A stretch of 64,000 nt of DNA, from contig NZ_JOHR01000008.1 of NCBI RefSeq assembly GCF_000719775.1, positions 1-64,000 on the forward strand, in the 5' to 3' direction. Origin of the DNA: Streptomyces sp. NRRL F-5135. GTDB lineage: Bacteria; Actinomycetota; Actinomycetes; Streptomycetales; Streptomycetaceae. Position numbers and translations under genes: made by a program. Shown piece by piece: positions 202 to 61,302 of the stretch. Numbering within the stretch: the stretch's first letter is position 1; each line of letters starts with the position of its first letter. Under the pieces are notes generated by a model. That model did not search any database, was not told the origin of the DNA, and worked only from the letters and a program-made list of their open reading frames with translations.

Positions 202-879
202 GTGCCTTTCCTGTTGCTGATCGAGGACGACGATTCCATCCGCACGGCCCTCGAACTCTCGTTGTCCCGCCAGGGCCACCGCGTGGCCACCGCGGCGACG
301 GGAGAGGACGGCCTGAAACTGCTCCGTGAGCAGCGGCCCGACCTGATCGTGCTGGACGTGATGCTGCCCGGCATCGACGGCTTCGAGGTGTGCCGGCGCA
401 TCCGGCGCACCGATCAGCTGCCGATCATCCTGCTGACCGCGCGCAGCGACGACATCGACGTGGTGGTCGGCCTGGAGTCCGGTGCCGACGACTACGTGGT
501 CAAACCCGTGCAGGGACGGGTGCTGGACGCCCGGATCCGCGCGGTGCTGCGGCGCGGCGAGCGGGAGTCCACGGACTCGGCGACGTACGGCAGCCTCGTG
601 ATCGACCGGTCCGCGATGACGGTCACCAAGAACGGCGAGGACCTTCAGCTCACGCCGACGGAGCTGCGGCTGCTGCTGGAGCTGAGCCGCCGCCCCGGGC
701 AGGCACTGTCCCGGCAGCAGTTGCTGCGGCTGGTGTGGGAGCACGACTACCTGGGCGACTCTCGCCTGGTGGACGCGTGTGTGCAGCGGCTGCGGGCGAA
801 GGTGGAGGACGTACCGTCCTCGCCGACCCTGATCCGTACGGTACGGGGTGTGGGCTACCGGCTGGACGCGCCTTCGTGA
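202..879 (+). CDS. afsQ1: AfsQ1 response regulator (OmpR family)
   Basis: Cytoplasmic response regulator of the AfsQ1/AfsQ2 two-component system, known in Streptomyces to affect antibiotic production and nutrient-stress responses. The receiver domain is residues 1-120, with an acidic pocket near residues 8-11, phosphoacceptor Asp52 in LIVLDVMLPG and a conserved Lys in DYVVKPV. A winged-helix OmpR domain follows (about 130-222, ending TVRGVGYRL). Starting at GTG 202 gives MPFLLLIEDDD and 225 residues, the length I recall for AfsQ1. The in-frame ATG at 193 and GTG at 136 would only add an unconserved leader. The stop overlaps the kinase start by 4 bases (GTGA), so translation is probably coupled. 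Confidence 0.92.
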   Translation: MPFLLLIEDDDSIRTALELSLSRQGHRVATAATGEDGLKLLREQRPDLIVLDVMLPGIDGFEVCRRIRRTDQLPIILLTARSDDIDVVVGLESGADDYVVKPVQGRVLDARIRAVLRRGERESTDSATYGSLVIDRSAMTVTKNGEDLQLTPTELRLLLELSRRPGQALSRQQLLRLVWEHDYLGDSRLVDACVQRLRAKVEDVPSSPTLIRTVRGVGYRLDAPS

Positions 880-2579
880 GCCACAGCGAACACCCCGGGG
901 CGGCGGACGGCCGGCACGGCGCCTCCACCGACGACCTGCCCTCGAACGACCGGTCCGCGAACGACCGGTCCTCGAACGGACAGCACACGGACGAGCAGCA
1001 TACGGACGAGCGGCACGCGGACGAGCGGCACGCCGCCGGACTGCGCACGGCCGGCCGTGGCGGCGCGCGCCGGTTCATCCTCGCCGGGCTGCGCCTGACC
1101 AGCCTGCGCCTGCGGCTCGTGGCCGTCTTCGGGGCCGTCGCCCTGACCGCCGCCGTCTCCGCCTCCGGCATCGCGTACTGGCTCAACCGCGAGGCGGTAC
1201 TGACGCGTACGCAGGACTCGGCCCTCAACGACTTCCGCCAGGAGATGCAGAACCGCGCCGCGCAACTGCCCGTGCGGGCCGGCCAGAGCGACCTCCAGAC
1301 CACCGCGGAGCAGATCGCGGGCGACAACTCCGGTTACAGCGTGCTGCTGATCGGCGAGCGGGACGCGGGCAAGCCCGTCGTCGGCGTCTCCGACCCGGAC
1401 GCCTTCACGCTGGACGACGTACCGGCCGCGCTGCGCAAGGCCGTCAACGACAAGCAGAAGGTCACGTCCGGCAACCCGCACCCGTACCACCTCTTCTGGC
1501 AGCGCACCGAGCGCGACGGCACGCCCTACCTCGTCGGCGGCACCCGGATCACCGGCGGCGGGCCGATCGGATACATGTCGAAGTCGCTCTCCCAGGAGCG
1601 CGCCGACCTCAACTCGCTCGCCTGGTCGCTCGCCATCGCCGCGGCCCTCGCGCTCGTGGGGTCCGCGCTGCTCGCGCAGGCCGCGGCCACGACCGTGCTG
1701 CGCCCCGTCCAGCGGCTCGGCGACGCCTCGCGCCGGCTGGGCGAGGGCAAGCTGGACACCCGGCTCAGGGTGACGGGGACGGACGAACTGGCCGATCTCT
1801 CCCGCACGTTCAACAACACCGCCGAGTCCTTGCAGAAGAAGGTCGCGGACATGAGCGCGCGGGAGGAGTCCAGCCGCCGCTTCGTCGCCGACATGTCGCA
1901 CGAGCTGCGCACGCCGCTGACCGCGCTCACCGCCGTGACGGAGGTGCTGGAGGAGGAGGCCGACAACCTCGATCCGATGATCGCGCCGGCCGTGACCCTG
2001 GTGGTGAGCGAGACCCGCAGGCTCAATGTGCTGGTCGAGAACCTGATGGAGGTCACCCGGTTCGACGCGGGTACGGCCCGGCTCGTCCTGGACGACGTCG
2101 ACGTGGCCGACCAGGTCACGGCCTGCGTCGACGCGCGTGCCTGGCTGGACGCGGTGGAGCTGGACGCCGAGCGCGGCATCATGGCGCGGCTCGATCCGCG
2201 CCGGCTCGACGTGATCCTGGCGAACCTGATCGGCAACGCGCTCAAACACGGCGGTTCGCCCGTCCGGGTCGCGGTGCGCACGGCGGACGACGAGCTGGTC
2301 ATCGAGGTGCGGGACCACGGCCCCGGCATCCCCGAGGAGGTCCTGCCGCACGTCTTCGACCGCTTCTACAAGGCGAGCGCTTCCCGGCCGCGCTCGGAGG
2401 GCAGCGGCCTCGGTCTGTCGATCGCGATGGAGAACGCGCACATCCACGGCGGCGACATCACGGCCGAAAACGTGCCGGACGGCGGCGCGATGTTCGTGCT
2501 GCGACTGCCCCGGGAAGGGCGCGCCCCGGATCAGGAGCGGGCGGAACGGGAACCGGGAGAGGAAGGCGACACACCGTGA
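876..2579 (+). CDS. afsQ2: AfsQ2 sensor histidine kinase
   Basis: Membrane sensor kinase partner of AfsQ1. The 567 residues begin with a hydrophilic, repetitive N-terminal tail of about 65 residues rich in Ser, Asn, Asp and His. Then come TM1 (around residues 82-102), an extracytoplasmic sensor loop, TM2 (around 245-270), HAMP, HisKA with SHELRTP (His342) and an HATPase domain with NLIGNALKHG, DHGPGIP and GSGLGLS boxes. The start is GTG 876, overlapping the afsQ1 stop. The end overlaps the following lipoprotein start, again as GTGA. The N-terminal repeats make it longer than the roughly 535 residues I recall for the S. coelicolor protein. Confidence 0.9.
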   Translation: MSHSEHPGAADGRHGASTDDLPSNDRSANDRSSNGQHTDEQHTDERHADERHAAGLRTAGRGGARRFILAGLRLTSLRLRLVAVFGAVALTAAVSASGIAYWLNREAVLTRTQDSALNDFRQEMQNRAAQLPVRAGQSDLQTTAEQIAGDNSGYSVLLIGERDAGKPVVGVSDPDAFTLDDVPAALRKAVNDKQKVTSGNPHPYHLFWQRTERDGTPYLVGGTRITGGGPIGYMSKSLSQERADLNSLAWSLAIAAALALVGSALLAQAAATTVLRPVQRLGDASRRLGEGKLDTRLRVTGTDELADLSRTFNNTAESLQKKVADMSAREESSRRFVADMSHELRTPLTALTAVTEVLEEEADNLDPMIAPAVTLVVSETRRLNVLVENLMEVTRFDAGTARLVLDDVDVADQVTACVDARAWLDAVELDAERGIMARLDPRRLDVILANLIGNALKHGGSPVRVAVRTADDELVIEVRDHGPGIPEEVLPHVFDRFYKASASRPRSEGSGLGLSIAMENAHIHGGDITAENVPDGGAMFVLRLPREGRAPDQERAEREPGEEGDTP

Positions 2580-3379
2580 CGGCCAGCGGGGGGAACCATA
2601 CGTTGCGGGCCGCCGGCCGTATCGCGGCCGGGACGGGAACCGGGACCGGGGCCCGGTGCGGGGCTGAGGCCGGAGCGGGGGCCGGGGCCGGACGGCCACG
2701 CGGCACCGGGCGCGCCCGCGTGCGGCTCGCCGCGACCGCCGGGGCCGTCGTCGCGCTCGTCGCCCTCACCGCGACCGGCTGCGGGATCAGGACGACATCG
2801 GTGCCCGTGGACGCCGGGCCCGCGCCGTCGCGGCTGCCCTGCGAGGTCTCCGGCGACGGCCCGGGCAGCCAGGACCCGGCGGGCGTGCCCGCTCAGGTGT
2901 ATCTGCTGTGCGCCTCCGGACTGGTGCCGGTGGAGCGCGCCGTGCGGATACCGGACGGGGCGACGCGCGACAGCGGGCCGCGGGCCGCCCAGGCACTCCT
3001 CGACGAGTTGCAGACGCGGCCGGCCGCCGCCGAGCGCGCGGCGGGCTTCACCACGTCCGTCCGGGGGCCACTGACCGTCTCCGGGCCCCGGAAGGGCGAT
3101 CCGTCGGACGCGCTGCGGCTGAGTGTCCAGCCGGAGGACCTGCCGACGACCGCGCTCGCGCAGATCGTGTGCACCCTCGCGGCGAGCGGGACGGTCACGT
3201 CGCCGGACGCCGATGTGGTGCTGGGCGGGCCCGGCGACTATCCGGTCCGTGGCTACCCCTGCGACCAGCGGACGAAGTCCCGCCCGGACACGGCGGCACA
3301 GCCCCGCACACCGGGGGCCGCCCCCTCGAGTCCGGCCGCCACTCCCTCGGGGCCGTCCGATTCGACCGGCTCCCCGTAG
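2576..3379 (+). CDS. Lipoprotein of the afsQ operon
   Basis: Third gene of the afsQ operon, translationally coupled to afsQ2 by a GTGA overlap. The 267-residue product has a long Gly/Ala/Thr-rich N-terminal stretch, a hydrophobic signal segment (LAATAGAVVALVALTATGC) and a lipobox Cys, so it should be anchored on the outer face of the membrane. The mature part has a few Cys residues and a Ser/Pro/Thr-rich tail. I recognise no catalytic motif. Its operon position suggests it helps AfsQ2 sense an extracellular signal, by analogy with lipoproteins such as CseA that modulate partner kinases; this is inference. The GTG start is fixed by the overlap, though the lipoprotein signal begins about 45 residues in, so a later start is possible. 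Confidence 0.75.
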   Translation: MTASGGNHTLRAAGRIAAGTGTGTGARCGAEAGAGAGAGRPRGTGRARVRLAATAGAVVALVALTATGCGIRTTSVPVDAGPAPSRLPCEVSGDGPGSQDPAGVPAQVYLLCASGLVPVERAVRIPDGATRDSGPRAAQALLDELQTRPAAAERAAGFTTSVRGPLTVSGPRKGDPSDALRLSVQPEDLPTTALAQIVCTLAASGTVTSPDADVVLGGPGDYPVRGYPCDQRTKSRPDTAAQPRTPGAAPSSPAATPSGPSDSTGSP

Positions 3380-3561
3380 CACCCGTGAGCAGGAAGCCGC
3401 CGTAGGCCCCGGTCACGGGCCCGCGCGTGCCCGTCTGCACCGGGGTCCCGTGCGCCACGCACACGTCACGACGGACCGCCCCGGGCGTGACGCCTGTCTC
3501 ATGACGCCGTTCTTCCGGGGGCGGCGGAACCGATGCCGCCGGACACCGCGTCTACGGGTGC

Positions 3562-5306: not shown

Positions 5307-6464
5307 CTAGCTGGTCACAGCGGTCTGCCTGAACAGCCATTCGGATTTCAACTCGGCGTATCCGGGCTTGATCACGTCATTGATCATGGCCAGTCGTTCA
5401 TCGAAAGGAATGAATGCTGATTTCATCGCATTGACGGTGAACCACTGCATGTCGTCGAGCGTGTAGCCGAACGCGTCGACCAGCAGCTCGAATTCCCCGC
5501 TCATGCTCGTTCCGCTCATCAGACGGTTGTCGGTGTTCACCGTCGTACGGAAGTGGAGCCGGCGCAGCAGCCCGATGGGGTGCTCGCCGATCGAGGGCGC
5601 CGCGCCGGTCTGGAGGTTGGAACTGGGACACATCTCCAGCGGAATGCGCTTGTCCCGCACGTACGCGGCGAGCCGGCCCAGCGACACCGAGCCGTCTCCG
5701 GCGACCTCGATGTCGTCGATGATGCGTACGCCGTGGCCCAGCCGGTCGGCGCCGCACCACTGGAGCGCCTGCCAGATCGAGGGCAGGCCGAACGCCTCGC
5801 CCGCGTGGATCGTGAAGTGGTTGTTCTCCCGCTTCAGGTACTCGAAGGCGTCGAGGTGGCGGGTGGGCGGGTAACCGGCCTCGGCGCCCGCGATGTCGAA
5901 GCCCACGACGCCCGAGTCGCGGTAGGCGTTGGCGAGTTCGGCGATCTCCAGGGCGCGGGCGGCGTGCCGCATCGCGGTGAGCAGGGCGCCGACGCGGATG
6001 CGGTGCCCGGCGGCCTGAGCCCGCCGTTCGCCTTCGCGGAAGCCCTCGTTGACCGCCTCCACCACTTCTTCGAGAGTGAGTCCGCGCTCCAGGTGCTGCT
6101 CGGGCGCGTAGCGGACCTCCGCGTAGACGACACCGTCGGCGGCGAGGTCCTCGGCGCACTCGGCGGCGACGCGGACGAGCGCGTCCCTGGTCTGCATGAC
6201 GGCACAGGTGTGCGCGAACGTCTCCAGGTAGCGCTCCAGCGAACCGGAGTCGGCGGCCTCGCGGAACCAGCGCCCGAGCCGCTCGGGCTCCCGCTCGGGC
6301 AGCGCGTCGTAGCCGGTCTCACGGGCGAGGTCGGCGATCGTGGCGGGGCGGAGCCCGCCGTCCAGGTGGTCGTGGAGGAGGACCTTGGGCGCGCGGCGGA
6401 TCTGGTCGGGGCTGGGCGGTCGTTCGGCCTGGCTCGTCGTCTGGCCGGTCAGCTGGCTCGTCAT
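5307..6464 (-). CDS. add: Adenosine deaminase
   Basis: Zinc enzyme converting adenosine or deoxyadenosine to inosine in purine salvage. The 385-residue length is normal. Visible motifs are the N-terminal metal ligands in LLHDHLDGG, the catalytic HAGE box (TIHAGEAFG), the LGHGVRI His and the C-terminal NTDNRLMSG Asp pair. The ATG at 6464 sits directly after GGAG with almost no spacer, which is unusual, but no better start is present. Upstream, on the minus strand, a TACATA -10-like element (6512-6507) is followed by the palindrome CTACGCGCGTAG. Related palindromes precede the nucleoside transport genes, so co-regulation is likely. Confidence 0.93.
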
Positions 6465-6480
6465 CTCCGCACTCTAACTC

Positions 6481-6492
6481 CTACGCGCGTAG
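6481..6492. promoter_or_regulatory. Palindromic operator CTACGCGCGTAG (add)
   Basis: A perfect 12-bp palindrome 17 bases upstream of the add start and about 15 bases downstream of a -10-like hexamer, placing it near or just after the expected transcription start, as for a repressor site. Near-identical copies occur at 35551-35562 and 37058-37069 before nucleoside transport genes. Confidence 0.65.
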
Positions 6493-29438: not shown

Positions 29439-30716
29439 TCAGGCGATACGTTCCCGCACCACCGGCGTCGCCTCGTACGCCGTTCCCGCCGGGGCGAGGT
29501 CGTACGTGTCCGCCAGCGCCTGGAGCGCGTAGTCGAACTTCTCCGGCGTGTCCGTGTGCAGGGTCAGCAGCGGCTGCCCCGCCGTGACCGCGTCGCCCGG
29601 CTTGGCGTGGAGCTCGACGCCCGCGCCCGCCTGGACCGGGTCCTCCTTGCGGGCGCGGCCCGCGCCGAGGCGCCAGGCCGCGACGCCGACCCCGTACGCG
29701 TCGAGGCGCGTCAGGACACCGGACGCGGGAGCCGTGACCACGTGCTGTTCGCGGGCCACCGGGAGCTTCGCGTCCGGGTCGCCGCCCTGGGCGCTGATCA
29801 TCCGGCGCCAGACGTCCATCGCCGAGCCGTCGGCCAGGGCCTTCGCCGGGTCCGCGTCCGTCAGGCCCGCCGCGTCGAGCATCTCGCGCGCCAGGGCCAG
29901 GGTCAGCTCCACCACGTCCGCCGGGCCGCCGCCCGCGAGGACCTCGACGGACTCGCGGACCTCCAGCGCGTTGCCCGCCGTACGGCCGAGCGGGGTGGAC
30001 ATGTCGGTGAGCAGGGCCACCGTCCGTACCCCGTGGTCGGTGCCCAGGCCCACCATCGTGGCGGCCAGCTCACGGGCGTCCTCGACGGTCTTCATGAAAG
30101 CGCCGGAGCCGACCTTGACGTCCAGGACCAGCGAGCCGGTGCCCTCGGCGATCTTCTTGGACATGATCGAGGAGGCGATCAGCGGAATCGCCTCCACCGT
30201 GCCCGTGACATCGCGCAGCGCGTAGAGCTTCCGGTCCGCCGGGGCCAGCCCGTCGCCCGCCGCGCAGATGACGGCGCCGGTGGAGTCCAGGACGTCCAGC
30301 ATCTCGGCGTTCGACAACAGCGCCCGCCAGCCGGGGATGGCCTCCAGCTTGTCCAGGGTGCCGCCGGTGTGGCCGAGGCCGCGCCCGCTGAGCTGCGGGA
30401 CGGCCGCGCCGCACGCCGCCACCAGCGGGGCCAGCGGCAACGTGATCTTGTCGCCGACGCCGCCCGTCGAGTGCTTGTCGGCCGTGGGCCGGGACAGCGC
30501 GGAGAAGTCCATGCGCTCGCCGGAGGCGATCATGGCGGCGGTCCAGCGGGCGATCTCGGCGCGATTCATGCCGTTGAGCAGGATCGCCATCGCGAGCGCC
30601 GACATCTGCTCGTCGGCGACCTCGCCCCGCGTGTAGGCGTCGATCACCCAGTCGATCTGCTCCGGGCTCAGCTCGCCCCGGTCACGCTTGGTGCGGATGA
30701 CGGAGATGACGTCCAT
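29439..30716 (-). CDS. deoA: Thymidine phosphorylase
   Basis: Pyrimidine-nucleoside phosphorylase of 425 residues converting thymidine or uridine plus phosphate to base and (deoxy)ribose-1-phosphate. The family signature KHSTGGVGDKITL and SGRGLGHTGGTLDKLE phosphate-binding loop are present, and the C-terminal domain contains ELHAKPGD. ATG 30716 follows AAAGGAACGCC. It lies 139 bp after the shortened cdd, and presumably belongs to the same salvage transcript, though repeats in the gap may affect read-through. Confidence 0.92.
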   Translation of the reverse strand: MDVISVIRTKRDRGELSPEQIDWVIDAYTRGEVADEQMSALAMAILLNGMNRAEIARWTAAMIASGERMDFSALSRPTADKHSTGGVGDKITLPLAPLVAACGAAVPQLSGRGLGHTGGTLDKLEAIPGWRALLSNAEMLDVLDSTGAVICAAGDGLAPADRKLYALRDVTGTVEAIPLIASSIMSKKIAEGTGSLVLDVKVGSGAFMKTVEDARELAATMVGLGTDHGVRTVALLTDMSTPLGRTAGNALEVRESVEVLAGGGPADVVELTLALAREMLDAAGLTDADPAKALADGSAMDVWRRMISAQGGDPDAKLPVAREQHVVTAPASGVLTRLDAYGVGVAAWRLGAGRARKEDPVQAGAGVELHAKPGDAVTAGQPLLTLHTDTPEKFDYALQALADTYDLAPAGTAYEATPVVRERIA

Positions 30717-30827: not shown

Positions 30828-30903
30828 CGCGGCGGAGCCGCACATCGACACTGCCTCACAAACCTCCGCCCACGCGGCGGAGCCGCATATCGAGCACAGC
30901 CTC
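30828..30903. repeat. Two-copy 45-bp-spaced palindromic repeat
   Basis: Two copies of a unit of about 30 bp start at 30828 and 30873. Each contains the hairpin-forming GCGGCGGAGCCGC and continues with ATCGA. The second copy overlaps the end of cdd. It looks like a REP-type element of the kind scattered in Streptomyces intergenic regions. Confidence 0.6.
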
Positions 30904-31260
30904 CCTTTCGACAGCGGCGCGCCCCAGCTGCCGGCAGCGGCCGCACGGCACCAGCACCTGGCCCGTACCGTCCACGCAGGTGAAGTGGGTGAGCCGGCCG
31001 CCGCCGCTCAGGCGGAGGGCCGAGACCAGGCCGCACTCGGCGCACAGGCCGATGCCGTACGAGGCGTTCTCGACGTTGCAGCCGGTGACCGTGCGGCCGT
31101 CGTCGACCAGGGCCGCCGCGCCGACCGGGAAGTGCGAGTACGGGGCGTACGCGCGGGACATGGCCTCCCGCGCGGCGGTCCGCAGGGCCTCCCAGTCGAC
31201 CCCGTCCCCACCGCTCCCGGAGCCGGAGCCGGGGTCCGGAGCGGGCGGCGGGGCCGTCAT
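30856..31260 (-). CDS. cdd: Cytidine deaminase, C-terminally altered
   Basis: 134 residues from ATG 31260, which overlaps the stop of the upstream permease (ATGA). A Ser/Gly/Pro-rich N-tail of about 22 residues is followed by the deaminase core: APYSHFPVGAAAL, GCNVENASYG, the zinc ligand CAE (LCAECG) and PCGRCRQ with the other two Cys. After CRQL the normal C-terminal segment of about 35 residues is missing and replaced by RAAVEREAVLDMRLRRVGGGL, encoded partly by the repeat element. All zinc ligands remain, but the subunit contact tail is lost, so activity is uncertain. Confidence 0.78.
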   Translation of the reverse strand: MTAPPPAPDPGSGSGSGGDGVDWEALRTAAREAMSRAYAPYSHFPVGAAALVDDGRTVTGCNVENASYGIGLCAECGLVSALRLSGGGRLTHFTCVDGTGQVLVPCGRCRQLGRAAVEREAVLDMRLRRVGGGL

Positions 31261-32570
31261 GTGCCCTGGCCCTTCCGGTACGGCAGACCGTCCGCCTTCG
31301 GCATCCGCAGCCGCTGCGCCGAGAGCGCCAGGACCAGCAGTGTCGTCACGTACGGAGCGGCGTCCACGAACTGGCTGGGCACCTGGTCCGTCAGCGCGTA
31401 CCAGAGGAACAGCAGCGCCGCGACGGCCGCCGAGACCACGGCCGCGACGTACTTCTTCTTGTACAGCTGCCAGGCCACGACCAGCACGAGCAGGATGCCG
31501 AGGAGCAGCAGCATGGCGTGCACGTTCTCGGCGCCGCCGCGCAGCTTGAGGCTGTCGGTGAAGCCGAAGAGCCCGGCGCCGAGGGCGAGTCCGCCCGGCA
31601 TCCAGTTGCCGAAGATCATCGCGGCGAGGCCGATGTAGCCGCGGCCGCCGGTCTGGCCCTCCTGGTAGATACCGGTGGCCACGATCGCGAGGAAGGCGCC
31701 GCCGAGACCGGCGAGGCCGCCGGAGACGGTCACGGCGATGTACTTGTACCGGTAGACGTTGACGCCGAGCGACTCCGCGGCGACCGGGTTCTCGCCGCAC
31801 GAGCGCAGCCGCAGGCCGAACGCCGTGCGCCACAGCACCCACCAGGTGCCGGGCACGAGCAGCAGCGCGACCACGGTCAGCAGCGACAGGTCGGTCACCA
31901 GGCCGCCTATGACGCCCGCGAGGTCCGAGACCAGGAACCAGTGTCTGGCCTGGAGGTCCTGCATCCAGTCGGCCAGGCCGGGGACGGTGATCTCGGTGAT
32001 CGCGTCGATGCGCGGGGACTGCTTGGAGGAGCCGCCCTCGACGCCGTCGAAGGCGAAGTTCGACAGGTAGCGGGTGGCGCCGACGGCGAGGATGTTGATG
32101 GCCACACCGGAGACGATGTGGTTCACGCCGAAGGTGACGGTGACGACGGCGTGCAGCAGGCCGCCGAGCGCGCCGCCGAGGATGCCGAGGACGACGCCGG
32201 CCCAGGGGCCCCATTGGAAGCCGGCCCAGGCCCCGAACCAGGTGCCGAGGACCATCATGCCTTCGAGGCCGATGTTGACGACGCCCGCGCGCTCCGCCCA
32301 CAGGCCGCCGAGTCCGGCGAGGCCGATGGGGATGGCGAGTTCGAGGGCGCCGGAGACCTGGCCGACCGAGGTGATGTCGTCCGCGCCGCTGATCAGCCGG
32401 ACCAGCGAGACGAGGGCCAGCGCGCCCGCGATGATCAGCAGGACGACGGGGAGGGTGAGGGGGCGGCGGCCGCCCTTCTTGGGAGCGGAGCCGCGGGCGG
32501 AGCCGGCGCCGGCGCGCGTCGTACTCGTACTCGTCGTGCCCGTACTACTGGTGCTCGAACTCGTGCTCAC
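31257..32570 (-). CDS. Nucleoside ABC transporter permease
   Basis: 437-residue polytopic permease of the BPD_transp_2 family, about 9-10 helices, like NupQ-type guanosine/nucleoside permeases. Typical core: SGALELAIPIGLAGLGGLWAERAGVVNIGLEGMM. The N-terminal 35 residues are a Ser/Thr-rich hydrophilic tail. It overlaps the preceding permease and the following cdd by 4 bases each, so all are in one translationally coupled operon with the ATPase. Confidence 0.88.
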   Translation of the reverse strand: MSTSSSTSSTGTTSTSTTRAGAGSARGSAPKKGGRRPLTLPVVLLIIAGALALVSLVRLISGADDITSVGQVSGALELAIPIGLAGLGGLWAERAGVVNIGLEGMMVLGTWFGAWAGFQWGPWAGVVLGILGGALGGLLHAVVTVTFGVNHIVSGVAINILAVGATRYLSNFAFDGVEGGSSKQSPRIDAITEITVPGLADWMQDLQARHWFLVSDLAGVIGGLVTDLSLLTVVALLLVPGTWWVLWRTAFGLRLRSCGENPVAAESLGVNVYRYKYIAVTVSGGLAGLGGAFLAIVATGIYQEGQTGGRGYIGLAAMIFGNWMPGGLALGAGLFGFTDSLKLRGGAENVHAMLLLLGILLVLVVAWQLYKKKYVAAVVSAAVAALLFLWYALTDQVPSQFVDAAPYVTTLLVLALSAQRLRMPKADGLPYRKGQGT

Positions 32571-33757
32571 AGCGCGGCCCCCTCCTTCTGGTTCTTGCCG
32601 TTGTTGTTCTCGTCGCCCCGGTCGTCGCCGTCCGCGTCGGACCGGCCGGCGGTGTGCGCGGTCGCGAGGGCGCCTCCGGCGGCGAGTTCCTCGCCGACCT
32701 TCTGCTGCTGGCGGCGCAGCCCGTAGCGGCGGACGAGTTCGTAGGAGACCACGACGGAGATCACGATCAGGCCCTGCATGATCGTGGCGATCTCCTTCTC
32801 GTACCCGTACTGGTCGAGGGAGGCCGACGTCTTGTCGAGGAAGGCGATCAGCAGCGCGCTGAAGGCGATGCCGAGCGGGTTGTTGCGGCCGAGGAGCGCG
32901 ATGGTGATGCCGGTGAAGCCGATGCCGGTGGGGAAGTCGAGGCTGTAGGTGTGGGTGTCGCCGAGCAGCGTGGGCATACCGGCGAGCCCGGCGACCCCGC
33001 CGGAGATCAGCATCGAGGTGAGGATCATCTTCTTGGCGTCGACGCCGGACGCCTGGGCCGCGCTCTCGCTGGCGCCCGTGGCGCGCAGGTCGAAGCCGAA
33101 GCGGGTGCGGCCGAGGACGAACCAGTAGAGGATGCCGCAGGCGGCGGCCACGAAGGTGAAGCCGTAGATCTCGCCGGCCTCGGCGCCCATGGACAGCCCG
33201 GGGAACCAGCCGGACTCGGGGATGTCACCGGTCGTCAGGTTGTTGGAGCCGGCGGGCTGGACGCCGAAGTTCTTGGGCAGGATCAGCCAGGCCACGAGGC
33301 TGGTGGCGATCGAGTTGAGCATGATCGTGGAGACGACCTCGCTCACCCCGCGGGTGGTCTTCAGGATGCCCGCGATCCCGGACCAGAAGGCGCCGACCAG
33401 CATCGCGACGATCACGATGAGCGCGATCTGGAGGGGTCCCGGCAGGTCGACGCTGGCGCCGACGAGCGCGGCCATCATCGCCGCGAGCCGGTACTGGCCG
33501 TCGACCCCGATGTTGAACAGGTTCATCCGGAAGCCGATGGCGACCGCGAGGGCGGCCAGGTAGTACGTGCCGGCCTGATTGACGATCAGGACCTGGATGT
33601 CGACGTAGGTCGCCGACTCGAACATGATCCGGTACGGCTCGACGGGGTCACTGCCGGAGACGTACAGCACCACGGTGGTGAGGGCGATGGCGACGACCAG
33701 CGCGAGCACCGGGCCGGCGAAGCCCAGGATCAGCCGGTCCTTGTCGAGTTTCTTCAT
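32567..33757 (-). CDS. Nucleoside ABC transporter permease
   Basis: 396-residue permease of the same family as its neighbour (NupP-like), with YLAALAVAIGFRMNLFNIGVDGQYRLAA as the conserved signature loop and about ten helices. The C-terminal 40 residues are hydrophilic and Asp/Asn-rich. It overlaps the ATPase stop and next permease start (ATGA). It forms the channel with the other permease, energised by the duplicated ATPase. Confidence 0.88.
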   Translation of the reverse strand: MKKLDKDRLILGFAGPVLALVVAIALTTVVLYVSGSDPVEPYRIMFESATYVDIQVLIVNQAGTYYLAALAVAIGFRMNLFNIGVDGQYRLAAMMAALVGASVDLPGPLQIALIVIVAMLVGAFWSGIAGILKTTRGVSEVVSTIMLNSIATSLVAWLILPKNFGVQPAGSNNLTTGDIPESGWFPGLSMGAEAGEIYGFTFVAAACGILYWFVLGRTRFGFDLRATGASESAAQASGVDAKKMILTSMLISGGVAGLAGMPTLLGDTHTYSLDFPTGIGFTGITIALLGRNNPLGIAFSALLIAFLDKTSASLDQYGYEKEIATIMQGLIVISVVVSYELVRRYGLRRQQQKVGEELAAGGALATAHTAGRSDADGDDRGDENNNGKNQKEGAAL

Positions 33758-35406
33758 CGGGCATCGTCCTTCGGGGGTGCTGCCTTCGGCGCCGGTTCCG
33801 GAACCTCGGTGGTCTCGGTGGTCTCTGCGGCCTCGGGAGCCCCGGGGGCCGGGGCGGCGGCATCGTCGGCGCCGTCGGACCCTTCCGTCCCGTGTGCCTC
33901 CAGGTGCCCCGTGGCCGCGCCCGTCATCGCCGAGCCCAGTTCCTCCGGGGTGATGGTGGCGGGGTCGGCGTCGGCCACGAGCCGGCCCCGGTACATCACC
34001 CTCAGGGTGTCGGACAGCCCGATCAGCTCGTCCAGGTCGGCGGAGACCAGCAGCACGGCGAGGCCCTCGCGGCGCGCCTCGCGGATCTGGTCCCAGATCT
34101 GCGCCTGCGCGCCGACGTCCACCCCGCGCGTGGGGTGGGCGGCGATCAGCAGCTTGGGGGCGTGGCTCATCTCGCGGCCGACGATCAGCTTCTGCTGGTT
34201 GCCGCCGGACAGGGAGGCCGCGGTGACCTCGATCCCGGGCGTGCGGACGTCGTACTCGCGCACGATGCGTGTCGTGTCCTCGCGCGCGGCCCGCGGACTG
34301 AGGAGCCCGCCCCGGCTGTTGGGCCGCTCGGTCACATGGCCGAGGATGCGGTTCTCCCAGAGCGGTGCCTCCAGCAGCAGCCCGTGCCGGTGCCGGTCCT
34401 CCGGTACGTAGCCGATCCCGCGCTCGCGGCGCTTGCGGGTGGGCGCGTGCGAGATGTCGGCGCCGTCGAGGGTGATCGCGCCGCCGTCGGGGTCGCGCAG
34501 CCCCATCAGGGCCTCGATCAGCTCGGTCTGGCCGTTTCCCTCGACGCCGGCGATGCCGAGGACCTCACCCTGGTGGATGGTGAAGGTGATGTCGTCGAGG
34601 ACGTCGCGTATGGCTCCGTCCGGGTCCGTCGCGGTCAGCCGCAGCCCGGCGACGTCCAGCATCGGACGGTCCGTCACCGTCGAGTCGCGGGTCTCGGGCG
34701 AGGGCAGCTCGCTGCCGACCATCAGCTCGGCGAGCTGCTTGGAGGTGGTGGCCGCCGGGTCGGCGGTGCCCACGGTCGTACCGCGCCGGATGACGGTGAT
34801 CTCGTCCGCGACCGACAGCACCTCCCCCAGCTTGTGCGAGATGAAGATGACCGTCAGGCCCTCGGCCTTGAGCTCGCGCAGGTTCTCGAAGAGGGCGTCG
34901 ACCTCCTGCGGGACCAGGACGGCGGTGGGCTCGTCCAGGATGAGGATGCGGGCGCCCCGGTAGAGGACCTTGAGGATCTCCACGCGCTGCCGGTCGGCGA
35001 CGCCGAGGTCCTCGACGAGCACGTCGGGGCGGACGCCGAGACCGTACGCCTCGGAGATTTCCACGATCTTCTTGCGGGCCTTGGAGCCGATGCCGTACAG
35101 GTTCTCCGCGCCGAGGACGACGTTCTCCAGCACGGTGAAGTTGTCGGCGAGCATGAAGTGCTGGTGCACCATGCCGATGCCGCGCGCGATGGCGTCGGCG
35201 GGGCCGGCGAAGGCGGCCTGGACTCCGTCGACGGTGATGGTTCCCTCGTCGGGCTTCTGCATCCCGTAGAGGATCTTCATCAGGGTGGACTTGCCGGCGC
35301 CGTTCTCCCCGCAGAGGGCGTGCACGGTGCCCTTGTGGACGGTGATGTGTATGTCGCTGTTGGCGACCACGCCGGGGAAGCGTTTGGTGATGCCGTGCAG
35401 CTCCAC
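33754..35406 (-). CDS. Nucleoside ABC transporter ATPase (two domains)
   Basis: 550-residue duplicated ABC ATPase (NupO-like). The first domain has Walker A GENGAGKST, a degenerate signature (VADRQRVEI) and Walker B ILILDEPTAVL. The second has a degenerate Walker A (GVEGNGQTE), signature LSGGNQQK and LLIAAHPTRGVD. This asymmetry is normal for the family. The first usable start is GTG 35406, which lacks a ribosome site. An AAGGAG lies 8 bases ahead of an in-frame ATC at 35463, which hints at a start further upstream. The C-terminus is an Ala/Pro/Glu/Thr-rich tail. Confidence 0.88.
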   Translation of the reverse strand: MELHGITKRFPGVVANSDIHITVHKGTVHALCGENGAGKSTLMKILYGMQKPDEGTITVDGVQAAFAGPADAIARGIGMVHQHFMLADNFTVLENVVLGAENLYGIGSKARKKIVEISEAYGLGVRPDVLVEDLGVADRQRVEILKVLYRGARILILDEPTAVLVPQEVDALFENLRELKAEGLTVIFISHKLGEVLSVADEITVIRRGTTVGTADPAATTSKQLAELMVGSELPSPETRDSTVTDRPMLDVAGLRLTATDPDGAIRDVLDDITFTIHQGEVLGIAGVEGNGQTELIEALMGLRDPDGGAITLDGADISHAPTRKRRERGIGYVPEDRHRHGLLLEAPLWENRILGHVTERPNSRGGLLSPRAAREDTTRIVREYDVRTPGIEVTAASLSGGNQQKLIVGREMSHAPKLLIAAHPTRGVDVGAQAQIWDQIREARREGLAVLLVSADLDELIGLSDTLRVMYRGRLVADADPATITPEELGSAMTGAATGHLEAHGTEGSDGADDAAAPAPGAPEAAETTETTEVPEPAPKAAPPKDDAR

Positions 35407-35463: not shown

Positions 35464-35946
35464 GACGGACTCTCCTTGGCCGAAAAGGAGTGGAGGGGCG
35501 GGTGAGACAGGTGAGGCAGGCGGGGTGAAGCTATCGCGCCGGAGGTACGTCTACACGCGTAGCGCAGCCGAATCGTAAGGCGAGGGTGTGCGGCCCGCCG
35601 AGTGATCGGCCAGGACGCGGAGCGGGTGTGCGAGGAGGCGGGGGCCGGGAGGCCGGAACGGGCGGAGGCTGGAAGGCCCGGAGCCCGGGGTCCGGAGCCC
35701 GGGCTCCGGTGCCCCGCGGCGGTGGCCGCGGGTGGCGGCTTCGATGGTCGCGGTGGCCGCGGCGGCCGCGCCGAGGTCCGGGGCGCCGGCTGTCGCCCTC
35801 GCCCCGGACCCGGCCCGTACTCGCTGCCGTCCCTCACCGTCGTCCCCCGCCCCTCGGTGGACCGGGCCGCGCAGGTCGTACGCGCTCGTTCGCGCGTCCG
35901 TCCGTACATGGTCGTGCCCGGCCCCCGGGGAGTCACGGCGCGGGGG
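35464..35946. other. Intergenic region between bmp and the ABC operon
   Basis: Nearly 500 bp with no supported gene. Near the ABC operon it holds a TACGAT -10-like element (35577-35572, minus strand) and the operator-like palindrome at 35551-35562. Further up is very GC-rich DNA with a CCGGAGCCCGGGCTCCGG palindrome (35692-35709) that may help end the bmp transcript. Long open frames here have unlikely composition. Confidence 0.5.
35551..35562. promoter_or_regulatory. Operator-like palindrome (ABC operon)
   Basis: CTACACGCGTAG matches the add palindrome at 11 of 12 positions and lies just downstream of a TACGAT -10-like hexamer on the minus strand, about 90 bp before the ABC operon. Confidence 0.6.
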
Positions 35947-36996
35947 TCACGGGGTGGTCTTGACCGTGATCTTGCCGTCCACGATCTCCTTCTTGGCCTT
36001 TTCCACGGCGGCGACGACATCCGTCAGCTTCGTGTACGCCGGGTTGGAGTCGGCCAGGCCGACGCCGTCCTTGTCCAGGCCGTAGCGGATCTCGCCGGTC
36101 TGCGGCTTGCCGTCCTGGACCGACTTGATCAGGTTGTAGACGGAGTCCGAGACGTCCTTGGTGACCGAGGTCAGGATCTGGTCCTTGTACGCGGCCAGGC
36201 CCTTCTGGGCGTACTGGTCGGAGTCGACGCCGATGGCCCACTTGCCGGCCTTCGAGGTGGCCTCGATCGAGCCGGAACCGGCCAGCCCGGCGGCCGCGTA
36301 GACGACGTCGGCCTTCTTGTCGAGCTGCCCCTGCGCGGCGGCCTTGCCGAGATCCGGCTTGGAGAAGCCGTCGAAGTTCGGCGGCTGGGTCAGGTACTGC
36401 GAGAGGACCTTGACCGAGGGGTCCGTCTCCTTGACGCCCTGCTCGAAGCCCGCCTGGAACTTCTTGATCAGCGGGGTCTCGACACCGCCGACGAAGCCGA
36501 CGGTCTTGGTCTTGGTGACCTTGGCGGCGGCGACACCCGCGAGGTAGGAGCCCTGCTCCTCGTTGAACACCAGGTTGGCGATGTTCTTGCCGGTCACCGA
36601 GGCGTCGTCGATGATGCCGAAGGTGGTCTTCGGGAACTTCTCGGCCACCTTCTTGATCGCGGGCGCGTAGGCGAAGCCGACGCCTATCACCGGGTTGTTG
36701 CCGGCGCGCGCGAGCTCGGTCAGGCGCTGGACCTTGTCGGCGTCGGACTCCCCGTCGGAGGGCTCGGCGTCGTTGCCCTTGATCTTGAGGTCCTTCTCGG
36801 CCTTGGCCAGGCCCACGTAGGCGGCGTCGTTGAACGACTGGTCGCCCCGGCCGCCGACGTCGTACGCGATGGCGGCGCGGGACTCACCGGAGTCCGAAGC
36901 GGCGTCCGAGGACGACTTGTTGCCACACGCGGTGGCGGTGAGCGCGAGTGCCGCTGACGCGACGCCCACGGTCGCGATCCTGGTGATCCGGCGCAA
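35947..36996 (-). CDS. BMP-family nucleoside-binding lipoprotein
   Basis: 349-residue lipoprotein with a signal and lipobox LTATAC (Cys24) followed by the BMP/PnrA-type periplasmic-binding fold: AYDVGGRGDQSFNDAAYVGL, NNPVIGVGFAYAPAI, VGFVGGVETPLIKKFQAGF and VVYAAAGLAGSG. This family binds purine nucleosides and delivers them to NupOPQ-type ABC transporters, encoded next on the same strand. Translation starts at ATG 36996. The promoter carries a copy of the add-like palindrome over a TACGAT element. Confidence 0.9.
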   Translation of the reverse strand: MRRITRIATVGVASAALALTATACGNKSSSDAASDSGESRAAIAYDVGGRGDQSFNDAAYVGLAKAEKDLKIKGNDAEPSDGESDADKVQRLTELARAGNNPVIGVGFAYAPAIKKVAEKFPKTTFGIIDDASVTGKNIANLVFNEEQGSYLAGVAAAKVTKTKTVGFVGGVETPLIKKFQAGFEQGVKETDPSVKVLSQYLTQPPNFDGFSKPDLGKAAAQGQLDKKADVVYAAAGLAGSGSIEATSKAGKWAIGVDSDQYAQKGLAAYKDQILTSVTKDVSDSVYNLIKSVQDGKPQTGEIRYGLDKDGVGLADSNPAYTKLTDVVAAVEKAKKEIVDGKITVKTTP

Positions 36997-37021: not shown

Positions 37022-37416
37022 GCGCCTCTTCTCGGCGCTGGTTACCGCGGCAGATCGTAACGCGCGTAGATGTCAGACAAAGCCCCCTACGGAAGCTGTT
37101 ATCGGATCGTCGCGAACGGCGGGTGTCGTGGCGCCTTCCCGCTGATGACGAAGGCTATACGGAACGTTGCCGAGGGTGTCGTGTGTGCGACGGTGGCGTC
37201 GGGGCGGAGGGGCGATCGGGCGCGGCGGGACGGCGGCGGCACGGCCGCCCGGGGGCGGTCCGGGACGGTCGGGGCGGTCCGGCCCGGCCCCCGGGAGCCG
37301 GGCCGCCGGTGCGGACGGTGCCGGTGGCGGCGAGGGGCGGTGGCGGGTCGAGGCGACCGCGTACCGCCGCGGGCGGCTCGTCCCGGCCGGGTACCGCCCG
37401 CAGGGGGGTCGCCGAG
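37022..37416. other. Intergenic region upstream of bmp
   Basis: About 395 bp. The bmp-proximal part contains the promoter (TACGAT at 37059-37054) and operator. The distal part is extremely GC-rich, with a GGCCCGG / CCGGGCC hairpin (37281-37287 with 37298-37304) that may terminate the M20 gene. No gene is supported. Confidence 0.5.
37058..37069. promoter_or_regulatory. Operator-like palindrome (bmp)
   Basis: TAACGCGCGTAG matches the add palindrome at 10 of 12 positions and touches a TACGAT -10-like element on the minus strand, a position that would allow repression of bmp. Confidence 0.55.
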
Positions 37417-41105: not shown

Positions 41106-42248
41106 TCAGGCCGGTGACGGCAGCCGGGGCAGCCGGTGTACGTCGCGGGCCGTGCCCGTGACGCCGGAAAGGAAGCCCTGGGCCCGGGGAGAGGCCGTGT
41201 CCTTCAGCCACTCGGGGGCGATGTCGCAGACCGCGACCCGTACGCCCGTTCCCGCCAGGGCGAGCGGCAGGGTGTGGACCACCGTGGAGGGGAAGCTGAC
41301 GATCGTGGAGCCGATCGGGCCCCGGCGAGCGATCACTTCCAGCGGGAGGTCCGGGCGGACGATCTCCAGGCCCGTCTCCGTGTGCAGCCGGTGCAGTTTG
41401 TCCACGTGCTCGCGGCGGTGCGCGAAGTAGCGCGTCGCGCCGTGCGCGCGGGCCAGGGTGGCGACCGCCTCCATGTACCGGTCCGCGTCGACCACGCCCG
41501 TCTCGACCAGCGAGGTGCCGACCAGGTCCGCGCCCTCCGTGATCCGGGGCGGCCCGAACGTGGCCCTCGTCCAGGCGAACCGGTTGGCCGTCACCTCGAT
41601 GCCGGCCGGGACCTCCTCGACGGGCATCGAGGTGAACACCTCGACCGTGCGGGCCTCGGAGGGGACGAGCCGGCGCCGGGCCGCGGCGGTGACCGGGGCG
41701 AGGACCAGCTCTCTCGGGCCACGGCCCGCGGCCCGCCGGTGCCAGCGCACCAGCGGCTCGCCGCGGGCCACCTGCCCGATGAACTCCAGCGTCGCGGTGC
41801 CGTCGTCCACGACCGTCAGCTCCTTGCCGCTGACCAGGGTCAGCAGGAGCTGTACGTAGCGGGAGAACGGGTCGCCTATGACGATCCGGCCGGCCCCGCG
41901 CAACAGTGGCGCGAGTTCGCGCACCGTCCGCAGGGGCGCCCCCGCACCACCGCGCGCCTCCTGCCAGCGCACGGTGAAACCCTCGTCACGGGCCAGCTCC
42001 GCCATCCGCCGGAGCTGACCGCGCGACATGGGATCGGTGGGCGACAGCACGACGACGGTGAGGTCGTCGGCCGCCGTACGGCCGTCGGCCGCGGCGGGGC
42101 CGCCGGCCGCGGTGCCGGCCTCACCCGGCGCGGCGGCACCGGGTGCCGCCGACCGCGTCCACTCCAGCACGTTGAGCAGCTGGACCGGACTCTCCACGAA
42201 AGCGATCGCACGAGGGTGCGGGGAACGGTCCCCGCCGGCACCGGTCAT
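41106..42248 (-). CDS. Nonulosonate-locus glycosyltransferase-like protein
   Basis: 380-residue cytoplasmic protein. The start AIAFVESPVQLLNVLEW and later IVIGDPFSRYVQLLL, RYFAHRREHVDKLHRL and IVSFPSTVVHTLPLALAG resemble sialyltransferase / polysialyltransferase folds (GT52-like), with a phosphate-binding HRREH-type stretch. It begins 4 bases after neuB and is the last gene of the minus-strand operon. A role in transferring CMP-activated nonulosonic acid is inferred from context. A central Ala/Gly/Pro-rich insert (residues 33-60) is probably unstructured. Confidence 0.65.
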   Translation of the reverse strand: MTGAGGDRSPHPRAIAFVESPVQLLNVLEWTRSAAPGAAAPGEAGTAAGGPAAADGRTAADDLTVVVLSPTDPMSRGQLRRMAELARDEGFTVRWQEARGGAGAPLRTVRELAPLLRGAGRIVIGDPFSRYVQLLLTLVSGKELTVVDDGTATLEFIGQVARGEPLVRWHRRAAGRGPRELVLAPVTAAARRRLVPSEARTVEVFTSMPVEEVPAGIEVTANRFAWTRATFGPPRITEGADLVGTSLVETGVVDADRYMEAVATLARAHGATRYFAHRREHVDKLHRLHTETGLEIVRPDLPLEVIARRGPIGSTIVSFPSTVVHTLPLALAGTGVRVAVCDIAPEWLKDTASPRAQGFLSGVTGTARDVHRLPRLPSPA

Positions 42249-42252
42249 GGCG

Positions 42253-43188
42253 TCAGACCGCCGCCGGCTCGGTGGACTGGGCGGCCTCGGCGACGACGCC
42301 CGGGACCCGGCGCAGCTTCTTCATCGGGCCCAGCTCCGACTCGTACACCTTCTTGACGCCGTCACCGAGGGACGCCTCGATGGTGCGGATGTCGCGGACG
42401 AGCCGCGCCAGGCCCTGCGGCTCGACCGAGGCGGCCTGGTCGGAGCCCCACATGGCGCGGTCGAGGGTGATGTGGCGCTCGACGAACGTGGCGCCGAGGG
42501 CGACCGCCGCGAGGGTGGTCTGGAGGCCGGTCTCGTGGCCGCTGTAGCCGATCGGCACGTTCGGGTACTCGGCCTGGAGCGTGTTGATCACGCGCAGGTT
42601 GAGCTCCTCGGCCTTGGCCGGGTAGGTGGACGTGGCGTGGCAGAGCAGGATGTTGTCGCTGCCGAGGACCTCGACCGCGTGCCGGATCTGCTTCGGCGTC
42701 GACATGCCGGTGGAGAGGATGACCGTCCGGCCCGTGGCGCGCAGCGCGCGCAGCAGGTCGTCGTCCGTGAGGGAGGCGGAGGCCACCTTGTGGGCCGGGA
42801 CGTCGAACTTCTCCAGGAAGGCGACGGCCTCGGTGTCCCACGGGGAGGCGAACCAGTCGATGCCGCGCTTGCGGCAGTGCTCGTCGATGGAGCGGTACTC
42901 GTCCTCGCCGAACTCGACGCGGTGCCGGTAGTCGATGTACGTCATCCGGCCCCAGGGGGTGTCCCGCTCGATGTCCCACTGGTCGCGCGGGGTGCAGATC
43001 TCCGGCGTGCGCTTCTGGAACTTGACCGCGTCGCAGCCGGCGTCGGCGGCCACGTCGATGAGGGCCAGAGCGTTCTCCAGCTCACCGTTGTGGTTGATGC
43101 CGATCTCGCCCGTGACGTAGACGGGGCGGTTGGGGCCCGCGGTGCGGGTGCCGAGCGTACGCAGGCGAGAGGTGGCGTCGGTGCTCAT
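42253..43188 (-). CDS. neuB: NeuB-type nonulosonic acid synthase, no SAF domain
   Basis: 311-residue TIM-barrel synthase condensing phosphoenolpyruvate with a six-carbon sugar or its 6-phosphate. Signatures: EIGINHNGELENAL, DAVKFQKRTPEICT, FASPWDTEAV, HKVASASLTD, STGMSTPKQI, CHATSTYP and GYSGHE. The typical C-terminal SAF (antifreeze-like) domain of NeuB (about 60 residues) is absent, as in the phosphate-using NANS-like or Kdn-9-phosphate synthase types only in part. With the fused phosphatase next door, a Kdn-9-phosphate synthase is the best guess. ATG 43188; the next gene starts 4 bases after its stop. Confidence 0.88.
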   Translation of the reverse strand: MSTDATSRLRTLGTRTAGPNRPVYVTGEIGINHNGELENALALIDVAADAGCDAVKFQKRTPEICTPRDQWDIERDTPWGRMTYIDYRHRVEFGEDEYRSIDEHCRKRGIDWFASPWDTEAVAFLEKFDVPAHKVASASLTDDDLLRALRATGRTVILSTGMSTPKQIRHAVEVLGSDNILLCHATSTYPAKAEELNLRVINTLQAEYPNVPIGYSGHETGLQTTLAAVALGATFVERHITLDRAMWGSDQAASVEPQGLARLVRDIRTIEASLGDGVKKVYESELGPMKKLRRVPGVVAEAAQSTEPAAV

Positions 43189-43232
43189 GGAGCGTCCTTA
43201 CGTGTTGAGGGTGGTGATTTGGGGGGTGATGA

Positions 43233-43400
43233 GGGTTGTGGGGTGGTGCGCTGTGGTGCGTGCGGTGCATGTGGTGCGTGCGGTGCGCGTCGTGCGCTGT
43301 GGTGCGTGCCGTGCGCGTGGTGCGTGTCGTACGCGTGGTGCGTGCCGTGCGCCTTGTCGCTATCGGGTGTGGTGCGCGTCGTGCGTGTGGTCCGCCGTGC
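43233..43400. repeat. Degenerate GTGCGTGCG tandem repeat
   Basis: A minisatellite-like array of 9-11-bp units related to GTGGTGCGTGC covers the neuB/neuA-phosphatase gap and the last codons of the phosphatase fusion, encoding its His-rich end HTHDAHHTR. Similar short tandem repeats occur at 6625-6680. Confidence 0.7.
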
Positions 43401-44589
43401 GCGCGGGGGTGTGGTCGAGCCCGGGGCCCAGCAGCCAGCCGGCGATCTCGCGGATCGCCCCCTCGCCGCCCCGGGCTCCGGTGACGGCACGCGCCTGGGC
43501 GCGTACGGCGTCGTGGGCGCTCGCGACGGCCACGGGCCAGCCGACGAGGCCGAAGCAGGGGAGGTCGTTGACGTCGTTGCCCGCGTAGAGCACCCGCTCG
43601 GGGGCGATCCCGTGCTCGTCGCACCACTGCTTGAGCGCCAGGTCCTTGCGGTCGATGCCGTGCAGCACCGGCACCCGGAGCTTGCGGGCGCGGGCGGCGA
43701 CGACGGGGTTCTGCTCGGTGGAGAGGATGAGCAGCTTCAGCCCGGAGCGGCGCAGCGCGGCGATGCCGAGGCCGTCGCCCCGGTGCACGGCGACCGTCTC
43801 CCGGCCGTCCGAGTCGACCATGACCCGGTCGTCCGTCTGGGTGCCGTCGAAGTCCAGGACGACGGCGTCGACGTCCTCGTACGAGGGCAGCACGGCGGGC
43901 TCCAGCAGCGGCGCCAGCGCGCGGGCGCGCGCCAGGTCGTGCGGGTCGTCGATCTCCAGGACCCGCGCCGGGTCGGTCGGTACGAGCGCGGTCCGGCCGA
44001 AGAAGCGGTGGCCCGCCGCCCGGAAGCCGTCGACGCGCATCGCGTACGCGGCGCCCGTCTCCAGGAACTCCTGGGGGCGGTCCTGGCGGCGCGGGCGGTT
44101 GGACTTGTCGTGGTTGACGCCGTACGCGTCGGCCGTGTCCGCCGGGGCGTCCTCCCGGCGCCAGAGGAAGCCGTGCGTGGGGGCGACGGTGTGCGCCGAG
44201 TCCGCGCCGCCGTCCGTGACGGCGCCCGCGACGCCGTCCACGTCCTCGGCCGTGATGAACGGGCTGGTGCACTGCACGAGCAGGACGACCTCGGCCTCCA
44301 CCCCGCGCATCGCTTCGTACGCGTCCATGGCGTGCAGCACGGCGGCCTCGCTGGTCGCGGTGTCGCCCGCGATCGCGGCGGGGCGCAGGACGACCTCGGC
44401 ACCGGCGGACCGGGCGGCGTCCGCGATCGCCGCGTCGTCCGTCGAGACGACGACATCGGTGACGCGCCGGGCCGCCAGGCAGGCGCGTACGGCCCGGACG
44501 ACGAGCGGGACGCCGCCGACGGGGGCGAGGTTCTTGGCGGGGACGCCCTTGGATCCGCCGCGTGCGGGGATCACCGCGAGGACGGTCAT
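43360..44589 (-). CDS. CMP-nonulosonate cytidylyltransferase / HAD phosphatase fusion
   Basis: 409-residue two-domain protein. Residues 1-225 are a NeuA-type cytidylyltransferase (AVIPARGGSKGVPAKN, LVQCTSPF, and EIDDPHDL). Residues 240-390 are a KdsC/KdnP-type HAD phosphatase (VVLDFDGTQTDDRVMVDSDG, LILSTEQNPVVAARA, YAGNDVNDLPCF). Both steps after synthase are thus in one chain: remove the 9-phosphate, then activate with CMP. That fits Kdn. The C-terminus is an odd His/Thr/Arg stretch from tandem repeats. Confidence 0.87.
   Translation of the reverse strand: MTVLAVIPARGGSKGVPAKNLAPVGGVPLVVRAVRACLAARRVTDVVVSTDDAAIADAARSAGAEVVLRPAAIAGDTATSEAAVLHAMDAYEAMRGVEAEVVLLVQCTSPFITAEDVDGVAGAVTDGGADSAHTVAPTHGFLWRREDAPADTADAYGVNHDKSNRPRRQDRPQEFLETGAAYAMRVDGFRAAGHRFFGRTALVPTDPARVLEIDDPHDLARARALAPLLEPAVLPSYEDVDAVVLDFDGTQTDDRVMVDSDGRETVAVHRGDGLGIAALRRSGLKLLILSTEQNPVVAARARKLRVPVLHGIDRKDLALKQWCDEHGIAPERVLYAGNDVNDLPCFGLVGWPVAVASAHDAVRAQARAVTGARGGEGAIREIAGWLLGPGLDHTPARTADHTHDAHHTR

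Positions 44590-59703: not shown

Positions 59704-61302
<1,599 letters not shown>

Follow-up and report, generated by a model that had tools for sequence, protein, structure and literature searches.

The window analysed here is a stretch of 64,000 nucleotides from Streptomyces sp. NRRL F-5135, and it contains add, an operon of ABC transporter genes with cdd and deoA, and a bmp gene (Table 1). Each of these is preceded by a copy of CTACGCGCGTAG, a 12-bp perfect dyad, much as the original prediction had it: the copy before add has 0 mismatches, the one before the ABC operon has a single mismatch, and the one before bmp (TAACGCGCGTAG, which reads CTACGCGCGTTA on the sense strand of bmp) has two. 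Only the spacing at add needs correcting, as 16 bases (6465-6480) rather than 17 separate the palindrome from the start codon. The palindrome was also said to be absent from the other promoters inspected, and the window indeed holds only four sites with at most two mismatches, three of them at these promoters and the fourth, at 59878, inside a called gene (59704-61341). Matches with three mismatches show no enrichment in the window (35 found, 54 expected from shuffled sequence), and since they are no more frequent than in shuffles, information resides only in the near-exact copies.

Table 1. Features of the nucleoside genes and their palindrome copies in the window.
Feature	Position	Strand	Evidence or remark
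Exact operator CTACGCGCGTAG of add	6481..6492	.	exact in 30/30 Streptomyces add loci, this genome being one of them
Predicted -10 hexamer TAGAGT of add	6471..6476	-	4 bases past palindrome, 6 before ATG; leaderless layout
add, adenosine deaminase	5307..6464	-	NCBIfam NF006847, 639.8 bits versus cut-off 412
Operator copy CTACACGCGTAG before nucleoside ABC transporter / cdd / deoA operon	35551..35562	.	1 mismatch
ABC transporter ATP-binding protein; context suggests nucleoside uptake	33754..35406	-	ABC ATPase matches in NCBIfam
ABC permease 1	32567..33757	-	sequence reading, context, synteny
ABC permease 2	31257..32570	-	sequence reading, context, synteny
cdd, cytidine deaminase	30856..31260	-	named by sequence reading
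deoA, thymidine/pyrimidine phosphorylase	29439..30716	-	passes the cut-offs of NCBIfam NF004490 and TIGR02644
Operator copy CTACGCGCGTTA (sense strand) of bmp	37058..37069	-	same form in 30/30 loci
Predicted -10 hexamer TACGAT of bmp	37054..37059	-	by reading; shares the operator's last two bases
bmp, substrate-binding lipoprotein	35947..36996	-	one weak NCBIfam BMP-type match, 93 bits versus cut-off 400

The 25 NCBIfam models listed for the ABC ATP-binding protein are various ABC ATPases, headed by sugar and 'B6' types, and none of them scores above its cut-off. A further claim, that the regulator is encoded outside the window, agrees with the called genes as read by eye: the genes of regulator type comprise one resembling TetR, which adjoins SDR genes, one AraC-like, one for an ECF-type sigma factor and one that reads like a sensor kinase, and none is a likely pathway regulator.

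The search was extended to the whole genome (8.02 Mb in 116 contigs), with the reversed word as control. Exact CTACGCGCGTAG occurs three times, as against once for the control, and all three copies precede nucleoside genes, namely add, a purine nucleoside phosphorylase gene (PNP; PF01048, with TIGR01698 above its cut-off) and deoC (TIGR00126 above its cut-off). The PNP and deoC copies lie 7 kb apart on another contig than add. The form CTACGCGCGTWR, which covers bmp and a nucleotidase gene, is found at seven places (the reversed control at two forward and one reverse): at add, bmp, PNP, deoC and the nucleotidase, inside a sigma-factor-like ORF, and before cutC. Five of the seven are thus promoters of nucleotide or nucleoside genes. 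The nucleotidase gene, preceded by a near copy, encodes a CpdB-like 2',3'-cyclic-nucleotide phosphodiesterase/3'-nucleotidase with Metallophos and 5_nucleotid_C domains (the gene reading ended at the edge of the locus). Its CpdB-type NCBIfam matches fall below their equivalog cut-offs, and its TAT signal match is just below threshold (21 versus 22.7 bits); the protein is likely secreted.

When one mismatch is allowed the word loses its excess, with 20 places in this genome for the palindrome and 20 for the reversed control, so lone near copies mean little without conservation. The one-mismatch places number 17, of which two (L010, nup; L007, the nucleotidase) are members of the regulon and at least seven lie within called genes. 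Those inside called genes at L004, L008, L009, L011, L012, L015, L018 and L019 are probably chance occurrences, and those at rpoB (L006), cutC (L013), a polysaccharide deacetylase gene (L005) and a gene of GH25 type (L020) were not taken to be members. Background frequencies of this kind, at one mismatch in the genome as at three in the window, together with the placing of near copies inside genes, are what would be expected if a CpG-rich word were simply common in high-GC DNA. The signal resides instead in the exact copies and, above all, in their conservation.

Conservation upstream of orthologous genes had been proposed as a check, and it is complete for the exact copies. An add homologue was found in 59 of 61 Streptomyces genomes, and the palindrome is exact in all 30 loci examined, the present one included; at least four genomes (G033, G007, G026, G108) also have it at a second copy of add. 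It is likewise exact before PNP in 80/80 loci, these being the best 80 of at least 580 relatives and therefore biased towards close ones, and before deoC in all 60 of the PNP loci where deoC is present. Seven of the other 20 PNP loci, which gave no deoC match, are full length, and the remainder are cut or short. The near copies are also constant in form. Before bmp, CTACGCGCGTTA recurs in 30 of 30 loci (drawn from 33 genomes), 25 of which have a further site with at most one mismatch, always on the transporter side. Before the nucleotidase match, CTACGCGCGT occurs within 100 bp in 26 of 30 loci (drawn from 33 genomes), mostly as CTACGCGCGTTG or the TCG form; of the four others, L213 and L225 are cut or partial, L224 has CTACGCGGGTAG and L211 has no near copy. 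That gene-specific variants are themselves conserved suggests that the operators are tuned.

Equal frequency in random intergenic DNA had been named as another result that would overturn the prediction. Within the 1.41 Mb around PNP in the 80 Streptomyces loci there are 141 exact copies, and 138 of them are at PNP or deoC. More broadly, every one of 41 Streptomyces genomes sampled has exact copies, three to six in each, with a total of 157 against 28 for the reversed control. Conservation in every add, PNP and deoC locus tested, and the excess over the control word in both genus and family, rule out chance at the listed genes as far as near-exact copies go, and leave coincidence as a negligible explanation.

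The excess extends through the Streptomycetaceae, where exact copies turn up in 60 of 61 genomes (G184 is the sole sampled exception) and in 16 of 17 genera, and it stops there. Elsewhere in the class only 5 of 108 genomes have any, seven copies in all, and a similarity search of their neighbourhoods found none of the known regulon genes; these seven were set aside as chance, the control word being commoner in several of the same genomes. As far as sampled, then, the operator is a feature of the Streptomycetaceae. Within the family there is some variation, as CTACGCGCATAG is the PNP variant in one genus (two genomes) and the deoC variant in another (one genome), while the bmp form is kept in 6/6 loci of genus g72.

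One conserved site thus stands at the separate transcripts of add, nup-cdd-deoA, bmp, PNP and deoC, and these genes almost certainly form a nucleoside regulon with a single conserved operator. The idea that one regulator coordinates adenosine deamination with nucleoside uptake, pyrimidine salvage and the BMP binding protein is largely supported; a single protein would then bind all copies. The site also extends beyond the genes first named, to PNP, deoC and the CpdB-like nucleotidase and, in sister genera, to purN-purH.

The layout of the promoters was analysed by looking for a TANNNT hexamer after the palindrome, with a start codon 6-7 bases beyond, and by using shuffled downstream sequence as control. 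This layout was matched in 167 of 171 cases, the promoters being predicted ones. At add the hexamer begins 4 bases past the palindrome in 29 of 30 loci and 3 bases past it in one (0.2% in shuffles), at PNP 12 bases past it in 78 of 80 first copies (3.4%), and at deoC 1 base past it in 59 of 61 later copies, up to three of which do not belong to deoC (1.4%). The spacing from hexamer to start codon is apparently that of leaderless transcripts for all three genes. The operator fills the predicted -35/-10 spacer at add and deoC and lies on the -35 side at PNP, where it spans about -37 to -26 relative to the start codon. At bmp the predicted -10 hexamer begins within the operator, an overlap that would explain why TTA constantly replaces TAG, a two-base departure, in CTACGCGCGTTA. 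The called start of nup is 144 bp downstream of its operator, and no clear -10 was seen for the promoter of that operon; the purN sites are roughly 200 bp upstream.

These distances bear on the nature of the word. It is close to the predicted -10 and to the start codon in three genes, as would be expected of a translation signal or of a promoter element for an alternative sigma factor, but such a signal needs fixed spacing, whereas here the -10 lies 1, 3-4 or 12 bases away or overlaps, depending on the gene, and the starts of nup and purN are far off. The word is also a perfect palindrome, and a sigma element needs no dyad. I therefore regard a sigma or translation signal as very improbable. 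An operator located in the -35/-10 spacer or running into the -10 is in a typical position for a repressor. Since the palindrome abuts the predicted -10 of the apparently leaderless genes add, PNP and deoC and overlaps that of bmp, it is read as a repressor operator, and the factor very probably acts by repression. Activation is an unlikely alternative: the PNP copy would overlap the -35, where some activators sit, if that gene is leaderless, but the add and deoC copies occupy the predicted spacer, the bmp copy enters the predicted -10, and the varying distance to the -10 speaks against a spacer activator of MerR type.

What protein might bind this operator? Of the 80 Streptomyces loci, 78 have a gene of the DeoR family near PNP, at a median distance of about 2.4 kb from start to start, and the two that lack it are on contigs cut on that side. 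Outside Streptomyces the gene adjoins lpd and PNP in all ten loci that cover that side, which come from four genera (g70, g72, g79, g80). Its product has the architecture of the DeoR/GlpR family, with an N-terminal DeoR helix-turn-helix (HTH; PF08220, 53.4 bits) and a C-terminal DeoRC sensor (PF00455, 167 bits), both above the gathering cut-offs. Across the 78 Streptomyces loci residues 5-70 reach at least 95% conservation, and across genera the HTH is 97-100% identical to the protein of this genome while the rest is 77-93% identical; the HTH is usually a regulator's best-conserved part, so its identity alone is weak evidence. The only relative in the PDB with E below 1e-5 is 7l6l (E 2.3e-7), the sensor of the E. 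coli deoxyribose operon repressor DeoR. The candidate does not classify as an orthologue of that protein (NF007961, 74.1 bits versus a cut-off of 244), and its top score among NCBIfam models is for AgaR, with none of their cut-offs exceeded. The DeoR-family protein beside lpd and PNP is the best candidate for the regulator, with about an even chance, judging from synteny and HTH conservation, of being the predicted binding protein.

It is only somewhat less probable that the same operator and regulon are served by a factor of LacI, TetR or GntR type encoded elsewhere. A CpG forms the centre of the palindrome, as in many operators of the LacI family. In addition, in 78/78 loci the 250 bp preceding the DeoR gene contain no copy with two or fewer mismatches, which speaks against autoregulation by the same word and favours another regulator. 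LacI factors per genome are among the most numerous in Streptomycetaceae, at 32 on average, in the available part of PMC4052901. Against such a factor stand the synteny of the DeoR gene in the loci examined and its near-invariant HTH; moreover, by eye, the compared clusters contain no other conserved regulator beside the genes except a two-component pair near add. Near add, at 390-3405 of the window, a reading suggestive of a sensor kinase and a small gene of lipoprotein type form an arrangement that seems to resemble the AfsQ region of S. coelicolor. AfsQ1 was dropped as a regulator because its site is unlike this word. A MerR gene lies near deoC in the present genome and was not seen there in other genera.

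The DeoR-family candidate is presumably the counterpart of SCO4920 of S. coelicolor. SCO4920 is at the centre of a predicted network module in which sigma factors are over-represented (PMC3224704, in part) and is tabulated as a DeoR family regulator under carbon catabolite control (PMC4848846, in part).

Additional targets were seen in sister genera, although they were picked where the word occurs and are less independent than the orthologue tests. In Kitasatospora (as genus g79 is taken to be, a named protein of that genus being 100% identical) and genus g80, the exact palindrome precedes purN-purH in the seven genomes inspected (G188, G224, G218, G221, G212, G215 and G189, at L259, L264, L270, L272, L274, L275 and L186). 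In one Streptomyces genome (G174, L156:2193-2534) it is 51 bp upstream of purS, and purQ/purL-like genes come next. The purN-purH and purS cases place a catabolic operator on biosynthetic genes. The exact palindrome also precedes the gene of a secreted-looking protein in five genomes, four of them Kitasatospora (L262:799-2517, L269:2550-4304, L273:754-2484, L181:1557-3011 and L154:2429-4003, the last with a second near copy adjoining the first). This protein has a ThuA/DUF4350-like N-terminal domain, followed in some cases by Ig and carbohydrate-binding modules; public records call it 'hydrolase' or 'putative Ig domain-containing protein'. Its structure model is poor (pLDDT 52), which makes the ThuA-like fold matches (TM about 0.3) a hint at most, and it is possibly a new enzyme of nucleic-acid scavenging. 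Finally, a HAD-phosphatase gene is under the palindrome in two genomes (L155, L137), with proteins 87% identical.

The site, its conservation, its target genes and its position relative to the predicted promoters were observed directly, and the model that I infer from them adds a single factor, dimer binding, repression and an effector. One transcription factor would control nucleotide and nucleoside scavenging in Streptomycetaceae by binding as a dimer to the 12-bp word, which lies within or next to the core promoter, and so blocking RNA polymerase. During nucleoside breakdown a sugar phosphate of the pathway (deoxyribose- or ribose-phosphate) would free the promoters of the factor, and the nucleotidase, BMP/ABC uptake, the deaminases (add, cdd), the phosphorylases (PNP, deoA) and deoC would then be induced together. 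As a whole, a single repressor of scavenging that is released by a pathway sugar, with the palindrome as its predicted operator, is a likely account of the data.

A wider role is doubtful but worth stating: the near-invariant DeoR-family repressor might be a putative master switch of the family between purine synthesis and nucleic-acid scavenging. The switch would then span extracellular nucleotide and cyclic-nucleotide hydrolysis, the ThuA-like secreted protein, uptake, deamination, phosphorolysis and deoxyribose-phosphate cleavage, and in Kitasatospora and its sister genus the same operator would also control purN-purH of de novo purine synthesis. Developing Streptomyces recycle their own mycelium, and the scavenged nucleic acids may come, for example, from dying mycelium.

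Comparable regulons are familiar from E. coli, in which DeoR controls deoCABD and related genes, and CytR, working with CRP, controls cdd, udp, nup and deo. The present regulon resembles that of DeoR in coordinating deoC, nucleoside phosphorylases and uptake, and the candidate shares the sensor domain PF00455 and the weak match to the solved sensor. It differs in its operator word, in the score of the candidate, far below the DeoR equivalog cut-off of NCBIfam, and in having its targets in several transcripts, which include add, the CpdB-like nucleotidase and ABC uptake. It resembles the CytR regulon in being scattered and in joining uptake with deamination, but the candidate is not a LacI protein. 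The simplest account would be a mechanism like that of E. coli DeoR or CytR working through another operator and, should the candidate be correct, through another protein of the DeoR family.

Among previously described regulators, AdeR, HpxR and UriR, of LacI type in RegPrecise, are named as nucleoside utilization regulators, and UriR is placed in Corynebacteria (PMC4052901); no nucleoside regulon of Streptomyces was seen in the available part of that source. NupR of Bacillus thuringiensis (GntR/HutC) regulates nucleoside transport (PMC9430930, in part), but it belongs to another protein family and phylum than the DeoR candidate of Streptomycetaceae. Titles and opening lines of abstracts, mostly from open-access papers, yielded no nucleoside operator and no nucleoside-recycling regulator for Streptomyces. 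A text search for the 12-mer, which sequences printed in figures or with spaces would escape, returned only its use as an oligonucleotide in crystallography: it was crystallised as an A-DNA duplex (PDB 5MVK; PMC8063756, PMC8510090), with no link to a nucleoside regulon in the available parts of those papers. Six other papers contain the 10-mer, and by their titles they deal with unrelated subjects.

So constant a 12-bp operator provides a direct handle, since it defines a testable regulon and comes with a candidate repressor ready for assay. It also brings in added members, the CpdB-like nucleotidase and the secreted ThuA-like protein. If the model is true, nucleic-acid scavenging would be linked to purine supply, and the regulon may offer a natural set of inducible promoters for Streptomyces.

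Some smaller observations concern the surroundings of these genes. Beside the nucleoside cluster of the window, 41106-44589 contains N-acetylneuraminate synthase-like and CMP-sialic acid cytidylyltransferase-like genes and a possible glycosyltransferase gene, all named by sequence reading. Elsewhere in the genome, three genes with one-mismatch copies are candidates for membership: an NCS2 permease gene (Xan_ur_permease), with the copy before it at L014:1501-1512; a second Metallophos gene, with a copy near its start at L021:1548-1559; and a nitrilase-type gene (PF00795), with CTACGTGCGTAG about 34 bp before it at L017:1496-1507. The last resembles beta-ureidopropionase or carbamoylputrescine amidase, the finer name being given by reading, and is a possible member for pyrimidine breakdown.
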